A stretch of DNA of 32,682 nt from contig CAIYJV010000108.1 of NCBI GenBank assembly GCA_903926605.1, forward strand, positions 1-32,682, written 5' to 3'. A program made the translations under genes and the position numbers. Shown here in pieces: positions 6,272 through 9,175 of the stretch. The first letter of the stretch is position 1. Every line of letters starts with the position of its first letter. This DNA comes from an uncultured Bacteroidota bacterium. Lineage in GTDB: Bacteria; Bacteroidota; Bacteroidia; Chitinophagales; Chitinophagaceae. Under the pieces are notes generated by a model that saw nothing but the letters and a program-made list of their open reading frames with translations, was not told the DNA's origin and searched no databases.

Positions 6272-6337
6272 GTGATTTCTGCCAGCCGGGGAGTTTTTTC
6301 TTTCGGTAAAATAGTCTGTAGTCTTGCAAATCCCATA

Positions 6338-6416
6338 GCACCGGCAACTCCCCGCCTGCAAAGGAGGGGCAGTTGAAATTCGCACCCGAAGCGGTGAATT
6401 TCAACGGGGGTGGTAG
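6338..6416 (-). repeat. Single hairpin-repeat copy, inverted relative to the 6905-7343 array
   Basis: Read on the minus strand, this stretch aligns with the repeats at 6905-7343. It has ACCACCCCCG, then a stem-loop, then GCCCCTCCTT-GCAGGCGGGGAGTT, then CCGGTG. The stem-loop arms (6372-6381 and 6396-6405, GTTGAAATTC/GAATTTCAAC) are a perfect 10-bp inverted repeat. Their sequence is quite unlike the stem of the downstream copies, yet they carry the same GCTTCG loop. This copy and the downstream array lie in opposite orientation on either side of the DUF559 gene. The rest of the recQ-DUF559 spacer (6272-6475) shows nothing else firm. Confidence 0.8.
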
Positions 6417-6475
6417 AACTGCTGCAGGGTGCACAACACTTTCTGTTTTTTCAAAATCTTTGTATGTAATTTCAA

Positions 6476-6504
6476 TTTAGAATACAATTATTTTGCATTC
6501 TAAA
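6476..6504. promoter_or_regulatory. 12-bp inverted repeat at the DUF559 gene start
   Basis: TTTAGAATACAA (6476-6487) pairs with TTGCATTCTAAA (6493-6504), with one mismatch in 12 and a 5-nt spacer. The right arm overlaps the TTG at 6493 and a TAnnTTG-like box, so it could be an operator or an RNA hairpin controlling the nuclease gene. Confidence 0.45.
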
Positions 6505-6897
6505 ATAAATAGACTTGTGGGCAAGCATAGAACTCACGACCTCGGCTACCTCAAAGATATTCGACGTGAGCTTCGTAGCAATATGACTACTGCAGAAGCA
6601 ACACTTTGGAAGGTACTTAAAAACGGAAGTCTTCAAAACAGGAAGTTCCGGAGGCAGCATAGTATAGGCAAGTACATAGTTGATTTCTATTGTCCCGCAG
6701 AACAACTTATAATAGAATTGGACGGAGAAGTGCACAATGACCCCATGCGATCCAGCGCAGACGCAGAGCGCGACCAAAATTTGCAAAAACTAGGTTTTAA
6801 AATACTGCGTTTCGAAAACAGGTTCATTTTTGATGACCTGCCTGGCGTTATTCATTCTATAGTTTCCAATTTTACACCTTTCAAAACAGGTGGATAA
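6493..6897 (+). CDS. DUF559 / Vsr-like endonuclease-fold protein
   Basis: This protein belongs to the DUF559 family, of the PD-(D/E)XK superfamily and related in fold to the Vsr mismatch endonuclease. The signature MTTAEATLWKVLKN is at about 31-44. KFRRQHSIGKYIVDFYCPAE follows at about 51-70, then LIIELDGEVH (about 72-81). The likely metal-binding residues are D64, E75 and D77. The segment AERDQNLQKLGFKILRFEN (91-109) is also characteristic. The whole family domain is present. The start is unsure: TTG 6493 sits inside an inverted repeat, and GTG 6517 is the next candidate. Hairpin repeats flank it, one inverted copy upstream and nearly three tandem copies starting 7 nt after its stop. Function is unknown; a nuclease acting on the repeats is an inference. 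Confidence 0.9.
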   Translation: MHSKINRLVGKHRTHDLGYLKDIRRELRSNMTTAEATLWKVLKNGSLQNRKFRRQHSIGKYIVDFYCPAEQLIIELDGEVHNDPMRSSADAERDQNLQKLGFKILRFENRFIFDDLPGVIHSIVSNFTPFKTGG

Positions 6898-6904
6898 AAC
6901 GTAA

Positions 6905-7343
6905 CAACCACCCACTACGAAACAAAAGCTTCGCGCTTTGTTCCGTCGGTACCTCTTTGGCAGGTGGGGAGGTTCCGGTGGTTTGTGAGTGATTGGGGAG
7001 TTTCCGGTGATTTGTATTTGAGTGGGGTGCTTGGGTCAGGTTTTGGGAGCATATTTCGACATCAACCACCCACGATGTAACAAAGGCTTCGCGCTTTGTT
7101 ACATCGGCCCCTCCTTGGCAGGCGGGGAGTTTTCGGTGGTTTGTGTGTGAGTGGGGAGGTTCCGGTGGTTTGTGTGTGAGTGGGGTGCTTGGGTCAGGTT
7201 TTGGGAGCATATTTCGACATCGACCACCCCCGATGTAACAAAGGCTTCGCGCTTTGTTCCGTCGGCCCCTCCTTGGCAGGCGGGGAGTTTTCCGGAGGTT
7301 TGTGTGTGAGTGGGGAGTTTTCCGGTGGTTTGCCCTTTTCATT
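6905..7343 (+). repeat. Nested tandem hairpin repeat, 158-bp period, about 2.8 copies
   Basis: Three units begin at 6905, 7063 and 7221, exactly 158 bp apart; the third is truncated after about 120 bp. Each unit holds ACCACCC, then a stem-loop around the loop GCTTCGCG. In copy 2 the arms are a perfect 12 bp, GATGTAACAAAG/CTTTGTTACATC. A GC-rich hairpin follows (CCCCTCC-ttggca-GGCGGGG), then two sub-repeats of about 30 bp containing CCGGTGGTTTGTGTGTGAG. Units 1 and 2 end with a shared tail from GTGCTTGGGTCAGG to ATTTCGACAT. Outer ACCACC and GGTGGT could pair and close a three-way junction. No coding signal is credible here; the long minus-strand frame is an artefact of repeat composition. Confidence 0.9.
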
Positions 7344-7366: not shown

Positions 7367-7398
7367 AAAAAAACTCCCGGACGTGCCGGGAGTTTTTT
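7367..7398. terminator. Intrinsic terminator, probably bidirectional
   Basis: AAAAAACTCCCGG and CCGGGAGTTTTTT form a perfect 13-bp stem around the loop ACGTG. It lies 37 nt past the thiolase stop on the minus strand, where it is best placed to end that transcript. It would also stop reading from the repeat side. Confidence 0.85.
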
Positions 7399-8839: not shown

Positions 8840-9175
8840 TTAATAGTTTTCAGGTAAAAACTTCAATAAATCCCTAATTTCTTTAGGAGTAAGAGATTCC
8901 TCTTCCGATTTATCAAAAATAGACAGCAGGTAAACCAATTCTGCCACGAATTGAACATGAATAATTACCCGGGCACTTCCCGATTTCCCCTTGTTTTTGG
9001 AGGCAATTGCCAGTCGAATCTTATAGCAGTGGTTTCCGATAGACACACCCCTGACGGGTTGTACTTCGAGGCTGCCAACCAAATCTGAAAGTTCTGATTT
9101 CAGAGATGGATATTTTTTTAATAGGCGCTTTACCTGTTTTTTAAAATTTGTTGTTATTTCAACCCTAAAGCTCAT
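8840..9175 (-). CDS. RelE/ParE-family toxin
   Basis: This 111-aa basic protein has the layout of a RelE-superfamily toxin. It begins with an N-terminal strand and a lysine-rich helix (VEITTNFKKQVKRLLKKYPS, about 5-24). SIGNHCYKIRLAIASKNKGKSG sits in the middle. The frequent RelE-type ending follows: VYLLSIFDKSEEESLTPKEI (about 81-100). Members of the family cleave mRNA on the ribosome; the exact cleavage residues cannot be assigned by eye. Its start overlaps the end of the upstream gene by 11 nt, the translational coupling expected of an antitoxin-toxin pair. The frame is intact, unlike the HigB toxin at the left edge of the window. Confidence 0.85.
   Translation of the reverse strand: MSFRVEITTNFKKQVKRLLKKYPSLKSELSDLVGSLEVQPVRGVSIGNHCYKIRLAIASKNKGKSGSARVIIHVQFVAELVYLLSIFDKSEEESLTPKEIRDLLKFLPENY

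Follow-up and report, generated by a model that had tools for sequence, protein, structure and literature searches.

A DUF559 nuclease gene and the palindromic repeats that surround it probably constitute one very small mobile element, a reading to which we give a probability of roughly 0.6. It is drawn from comparisons of sequences centred on a window of 32,682 nucleotides (contig CAIYJV010000108.1, from an uncultured member of the Chitinophagaceae, Bacteroidota). In this window, a DUF559 open reading frame (6493-6897, 134 aa), flanked by a RecQ-like helicase gene and a thiolase gene, has one inverted copy of an 81-nt structured repeat on its left and three tandem copies on its right. Counterparts of this arrangement, with ends of other sequences, are found around DUF559 genes of many genomes, and in some of these the nuclease lies in frame within an essential gene.

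The locus and its repeat

The features of the locus, in window coordinates, are:

6336-6417, minus strand: repeat copy to the left of the DUF559 gene, inverted relative to the other three (covariance model R1, E 2.4e-13; inverted repeats I1-I3)
6493-6897, plus strand: DUF559 (PF04480) nuclease gene, 134 aa from TTG (Pfam E 9.6e-33)
6595-6762, plus strand: stretch from codon E35 to codon D90, with the invariant E35, D64, E75, H81 and D90 (55 aligned proteins)
6904-6983, plus strand: tandem array, repeat copy 1 (R1 E 5.7e-17)
7062-7142, plus strand: tandem array, repeat copy 2, with a perfect 13-bp stem (R1 E 4.8e-24; single-stranded DNA fold z -5.4)
7220-7300, plus strand: tandem array, repeat copy 3 (R1 E 2.8e-24)
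6905-7343, plus strand: tandem array with a 158-nt period and G-rich sub-repeats 29-30 nt apart (direct repeats D1-D4)

The gene, the repeat copies and their opposite orientations lie where the original prediction had placed them, as located by repeat search, Pfam and the covariance model; R1 itself was built from copies of the window genome, those of the window included. The start codon of the gene is uncertain, and the TTG at 6493 gives the longest frame.

The 81-nt unit reads as a three-way junction, in which an ACCACC/GGTGGT stem would close the structure, a 13-bp stem with a short GC-rich loop would form the long arm and a GC-rich hairpin would form the other. The claim that each stem pairs perfectly holds for the copy at 7062-7142 (13 bp) and for a 10-bp inner stretch of the left copy (GTTGAAATTC/GAATTTCAAC), but not for the copies starting at 6904 and 7220, which have stem mismatches. 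Only the 7062-7142 copy folds far better than its shuffles as single-stranded DNA (z -5.4); the z-scores are -2.1 for the left copy, -1.5 for the 6904 copy and -0.9 for the 7220 copy. Across 24 repeat copies of the window genome, pairing is found in 92% of cells, and two-sided changes are present at 6 of the 26 pairs, with a shuffled mean of 1.5 and none of 500 shuffles as high. The covariation read from the window alone is thus real within this genome, but its strength is modest, since it comes from eight two-sided cells, three contributed by the left copy and five by five other copies.

A known RNA family was rejected as the identity of the repeat because no Rfam family reaches its gathering score between 6000 and 7600 of the window, the best match being asX2 with 27.3 bits against a gathering score of 70. 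Between the array and the thiolase gene, at 7368-7398, lies a perfect 13-bp inverted repeat, AAAAAACTCCCGG/CCGGGAGTTTTTT, which is terminator-like. A 111-aa frame at 8840-9175 on the minus strand has a RelE-like match of 28.6 bits, barely above the cut-off of 27.

The DUF559 nuclease

The window protein belongs to DUF559, matching PF04480 with 112.8 bits where the cut-off is 20.6. Residues E35, D64, E75, G78, H81, D90 and R93, numbered from the TTG, are among those invariant in 55 aligned DUF559 proteins; E35, D64, E75, H81 and D90 we take to be the catalytic set of an EDxHD active site. The AlphaFold2 model of the protein has a pLDDT of 87.6, and its fold matches are 3hrl, I-Bth0305I (3r3p, TM-score by target 0.77) and, more weakly, Vsr (1vsr, 0.40). 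A profile search finds I-Bth0305I at E 1.2e-6. By profile and predicted fold, the DUF559 nuclease is a member of the EDxHD/Vsr-like group and is related to the EDxHD homing endonuclease I-Bth0305I.

Judged from its substitutions, the nuclease is under purifying selection. The dN/dS ratio is 0.04-0.21 in the five of 12 pairs whose dS is unsaturated, one of the five being in-gene, and among the other seven pairs nonsynonymous changes are much less frequent than synonymous changes. Relatives of the window protein are few in phage records (3 of 50,697). The available text of PMC12907096 reports that the Caulobacter DUF559 protein VsrA is needed for a DNA damage response in cells without a cytosine methyltransferase, which makes it plausible that DUF559 proteins act on DNA in cells.

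Inverted ends around DUF559 genes

The Bacteroidota sample holds 96 distinct DUF559 copies from a set of 59 related genomes and a draw of 395 genomes of the phylum. For each locus, the 250 nt on the left were aligned with the 250 nt on the right in reverse complement, and a score of at least 14 was taken as positive, with no stem length set; nine of the 96 copies have flanks too short for this test. Of the 87 copies whose flanks are both long enough, 48 have inverted ends (18 of the 37 in-gene copies and 30 of the 50 others). The controls give 0 of 81 for flank pairs taken 700 nt farther out, 2 of 280 for random placements and 0 of 29 for RNase P genes. The denominator of 87 is a corrected one, since the overlapping loci L027 and L051 count two copies twice in the set of 89 rows. 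The matching ends are mostly palindromes, GACCTCACCCCCAACCCCTCTCCAAAGGAGAGGG being an example. A strict hairpin scan (stem of at least 9, GC of at least 60%) finds hairpins on both sides in 11 of the 89 rows and on one side in 26, the corresponding numbers among 220 control placements being 0 and 7.

The ends differ between genomes and match within a locus. With L051 and loci containing runs of N dropped, 85 rows were permuted: a locus has its own right end as the best of 85 in 22 cases and within the top three in 40, and the mean self score of 17.7 exceeds the highest mean of 2000 permutations (11.2), so that the ends are locus-specific.

The inverted-end test was also applied beyond the phylum. 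Scanning named genomes with the window protein gives 197 relatives, of which 80 were retained; by their titles, these come from Bacteroidota, Patescibacteria, Clostridia, several proteobacterial groups and others. Inverted ends are found in 48 of 75 of these multi-phylum copies, five loci with short flanks being dropped; the distal control is 0 of 68. Some rows, among them L260/L261 and L267/L268/L271, are near relatives, so that not all are independent. Chance or base composition, that is, GC-rich hairpins being common in these genomes, would account for a few GC-rich hairpin repeats seen in distal flanks and random places, but in view of the random, RNase P and distal counts of inverted ends it is hardly credible as the explanation.

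The original prediction had guessed at a partnership of repeat and DUF559 gene, and had made the idea depend on repeats and genes being associated. The association is present in both samples, and with the association across genomes described below it strongly supports, at the level of sequence, a partnership that would be general across Bacteroidota and many phyla. By this test, 39 of the 87 Bacteroidota copies and 27 of the 75 multi-phylum copies are without clear inverted ends, and three loci of the plasmid collection (E. coli chromosome, Synechocystis, Sinorhizobium) have scores of 9 to 9.5, under the threshold. A universal GGGGTG tag by the hairpin was rejected, as it is absent from most loci: it is found on any side in only 25 of 85 and 25 of 73, the controls being 4/81 and 3/68 for distal flanks, 1/220 for random placements and 0/29 for RNase P genes.

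Several individual loci have features of their own. In a Rickettsiales MAG (L286), DUF559 is in frame near the middle of an open frame of 1333 codons, with an inverted-end score of 15.5. On the Synechocystis plasmid CP101716.1 (L340), a DUF559 gene with CCTCACC-type ends (score 9.5) adjoins and apparently interrupts a BREX PglX-like gene. Some 150 nt separate E. coli ycjD (L339:1501-1854) from a copy (L339:2000-2065) of a dispersed GC-rich repeat, presumably Box C. Of 5426 genomes, 5375 contain this repeat, at a median of 16 places per genome; the ycjD region is matched over at least 80% of the query in 3359 genomes, and four genomes examined that are without ycjD have an efflux operon at the site. 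ycjD was rejected as a model, since its inverted-end test is negative (9.0), the dispersed repeat is on one side and there is no clean empty site.

Dispersed repeats

A search of Bacteroidota genomes with a covariance model, which the original prediction had proposed as a check, shows that the window repeat is more than chance: R1 has 27 matches on 13 contigs of the window genome, including the four at the DUF559 gene, and no match in 58 related genomes, three of the same genus among them, under stricter filters that may lose weak matches. None of these three has a strong DUF559 match; one has no match and two have weak ones only. No empty site for the window element was found in them, the RecQ identity being about 58% and the available adjoining stretch having no thiolase match. 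Within the window genome, 23 of the 27 copies are not beside a DUF559 gene, and none of the 18 copies checked outside the window lies in a frame longer than 231 codons, so that, by frame length only, there is no sign of a host gene. In some arrays of this genome (L014 and L017), copies of the window repeat and of a second palindrome, CCCCCTTGCCCCCTTCGAAGGGGGAATT, follow each other in turn. A second DUF559 match of the genome (C89) was rejected as an element because it looks, by eye, like the nuclease domain at the C-terminal end of a helicase-like protein.

Association across genomes is seen with a half-repeat, defined by the pattern CCTCACCCN{2,5}CCCTCTCC, which covers some repeat types only; the window repeat is of another sequence type and is not counted. 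Of 395 genomes, 93 have the half-repeat, and its 771 matches compare with 6 for a reversed control pattern. It is present in 71 of 161 DUF559 genomes versus 22 of 233 others, the window's own genome excluded, an odds ratio of 7.6 that becomes 5.4 when the largest family is left out; apart from this omission, the statistics ignore kinship. The 90 DUF559 genomes without the half-repeat and the 22 carriers without DUF559, seven of them with at least five copies, indicate that the pattern covers some repeat types and that repeats can outlive the gene or do without it. The seven, which have no DUF559 match at E 1e-15, are G421, G059, G078, G158, G335, G340 and G415. In G421, the ten half-repeat places listed are arranged as inverted pairs, of which four have a spacing of about 120 nt and one a smaller spacing.

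Those 22 DUF559-negative carriers are also what would be expected if another enzyme, a RAYT/Y1 or other transposase, moved the repeats and DUF559 were a passenger caught between two copies. There are four Y1_Tnp matches in the window genome (contigs C82, C422, C110 and C292), and at least one in 19 of 21 DUF559 genomes tested. The window-type repeat is absent from these four contigs, whereas four of its 27 copies bracket the DUF559 gene; this weakens RAYT as its partner, although the contigs are short and, in an assembly of 426 contigs, absence from one contig is weak evidence. The two DUF559 genomes with no Y1_Tnp match are G026, whose copy is inside MetRS, and G160, which carries the half-repeat. 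Since a mere passenger would hardly be expected to have locus-matched inverted ends in many phyla, or to be under purifying selection, this explanation is unlikely.

In-frame insertions in host genes

The most striking part of the system, insertion in frame in essential genes of other genomes, could not be seen by a reader of the window alone, whose DUF559 copy is intergenic; it is a property of the relatives. In the Bacteroidota set, 37 of 96 DUF559 copies are in frame, with more than 80 codons of one open frame on each side. The hosts include LeuRS, MetRS, methionine synthase, chorismate synthase and restriction enzymes. Pfam was used to scan 26 host frames, three of which (L056, L104 and L105) have no host domain. 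Domains matched on both sides of DUF559 include those of chorismate synthase and methylmalonyl-CoA mutase, the catalytic domain of MetRS, the activation domain of methionine synthase, the specificity domain of a Type ISP enzyme and a helicase domain of UvrD type, while in LeuRS, methionine synthase, HsdR and more the insert is between domains. The peptides at many insert junctions read like translated repeat ends.

LeuRS has two insertion sites, each of which is uninterrupted in some of eight aligned proteins, and the LeuRS of G015 (L027/L051, G015:C90) has two DUF559 insertions in one frame. In one genus, methionine synthase is matched in 28 of 31 genomes, and among 16 aligned proteins three are filled and 13 uninterrupted. 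The unit is not simply added but occupies the place of the short linker of the others. In the best pair, G374 and G448, the flanks are 98% and 95% identical. No clean target-site duplication is seen at methionine synthase, the one site with aligned empty alleles.

These positions bear on the possibility that the hairpins are terminators or mRNA stabilisers insulating a horizontally moved nuclease gene that serves in defence or repair. Hairpins on both sides could indeed stop transcription, and VsrA is tied to the DNA damage response in the accessible part of PMC12907096. Terminators, on the other hand, are not expected in frame in coding regions, matched within a locus or dispersed away from the gene. 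The PADLOC defence models give only weak matches, the best being DpdF at E 9e-5 across 47 residues, on which ground a known defence system was rejected. Insulating hairpins are thus a very improbable explanation.

Other small genes have similar surroundings. GIY-YIG domains lie in frame inside restriction-type proteins at L152 (G042:C2:345473) and L091 (G316:C27), and in L152 the peptide at the junction, AEPVEAFGE, resembles the translation of a CTGAGCCTGTCGAAG repeat. In the relatives, GIY-YIG genes have inverted ends in 8 of 28 loci versus 2 of 24 distal pairs, a possible sister system. Genes of the 23S intervening-sequence protein (PF05635, L174-L203), with up to 16 matches per genome, have inverted ends in 20 of 29 loci versus 0 of 28 distal pairs, and these ends are mostly low-complexity. 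The GIY-YIG nucleases and the 23S intervening-sequence protein, which are unrelated small genes, may have built parallel elements with repeats of their own.

Signs of movement

In G132, two units of about 490 nt that are 85.5% alike stand at different loci. The same stretch as one of them holds a gene-less unit with like ends, beside an apparent remnant of the 3' end of the gene. L268 and L271 share their surroundings, while the L267 unit is about 90% identical and its surroundings match theirs in short pieces only. On a tree of 93 nuclease domains, which has few columns and many open forks, at least six changes of the LeuRS label are required on well-supported branches, and one supported clade mixes insertions in methionine synthase, M23 peptidase and mutase. 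Neither cleavage nor an excision product nor a new insertion is observed in the data analysed.

Movement of this kind could also be that of a homing endonuclease which cleaves uninterrupted alleles and enters them through repair, with the palindromes serving only as tolerated linkers or targets. The nearest solved relatives of the nuclease, 3hrl and I-Bth0305I, favour this, as do the recurring sites, two in LeuRS and one in the methionine synthase linker, and presence and absence of the latter within one genus is compatible with homing. Hosts and intergenic sites, however, are many and unrelated, the ends are palindromic and matched, gene-less copies are dispersed, and the label changes on the nuclease tree exceed what one fixed site would lead one to expect. 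Homing as the whole explanation is therefore quite unlikely, and it may be one arm of the element's own mechanism and not a true rival.

Comparison with known systems

The partnership of DUF559 with repeats is not described in the open-access literature searched by title, start of abstract and passages, a body of text with most subscription papers and preprints outside it. The closest likeness is to REP/REPIN-RAYT systems, in which a nuclease gene is flanked by palindromic repeats and gene-less inverted doublets are dispersed. REPINs, in the part of PMC3116915 available, form dispersed inverted doublets and tandem clusters beside the enzyme gene. The window element similarly has a single gene between inverted palindromes, dispersed gene-less copies and a tandem cluster by the gene. 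The enzyme differs, being PF04480 of the Vsr/EDxHD fold where RAYTs are Y1 transposases, and Y1 enzymes have the HUH fold. With an enzyme of another fold, the DUF559 element is not a RAYT system, and DUF559 units are, in addition, found in frame inside essential genes.

In this last respect they resemble the Rickettsia palindromic elements, small palindromic units that are inserted in frame in protein genes, according to the portions consulted of PMC3733652 and PMC10969869; these elements are about 150 nt long, and no nuclease gene is mentioned in those portions. DUF559 units carry a whole nuclease domain, and the likeness is one of insertion mode. I-Bth0305I belongs to the same nuclease family by profile and fold, is a 'mobile intron protein' by its PDB title, and has a target of nearly 60 bp in the excerpt seen of PMC3943268. 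Homing enzymes spread by cutting DNA, but no intron was noticed at DUF559 loci, and the ends there are palindromes common to dispersed copies. VsrA has the same Pfam domain and is thought to act on DNA in cells; it is discussed as a mismatch-repair partner of the methyltransferase, with neither repeats nor mobility mentioned in the available text of PMC12907096. MITEs are likewise short, non-autonomous units with inverted ends, but they depend on the transposases of autonomous transposons, as far as the accessible text of PMC3116915 goes, whereas here the gene between the ends is that of the DUF559 nuclease.

The proposed element and its meaning

In the mobile element proposed here, the EDxHD-type endonuclease would recognise its own ends, probably in the form of folded single strands or of extruded hairpins, and would nick or cut them, whereupon repair or replication would copy the unit, or a gene-less derivative, to new sites. 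Ends without stop codons in the frame used would let the element settle in protein loops, and the host gene would then survive as a fusion with an extra nuclease domain. The gene-less copies would be REPIN-like derivatives. A wider reading, that DUF559 represents a new class of minimal transposable elements spanning phyla, each an endonuclease of about 110 residues with palindromic ends, which drive REPIN-like repeats and live in frame in essential enzymes, we hold at even odds.

DUF559 is a widespread family filed as function unknown, and many bacterial palindromic repeats have, to our knowledge, no known partner. If the nuclease moves its own repeat, both would be explained, and a second enzyme fold would be found in the role ascribed to RAYTs. 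A compact nuclease with specificity for a folded repeat could also make a useful tool. For annotation, caution would be needed, since an additional nuclease domain in a LeuRS, MetRS or methionine synthase may mean that the gene holds a parasite. If the in-frame domains are read correctly, loss of the parasite would require exact editing of the host gene, and the element would survive in genomes by being lodged in frame in indispensable genes.
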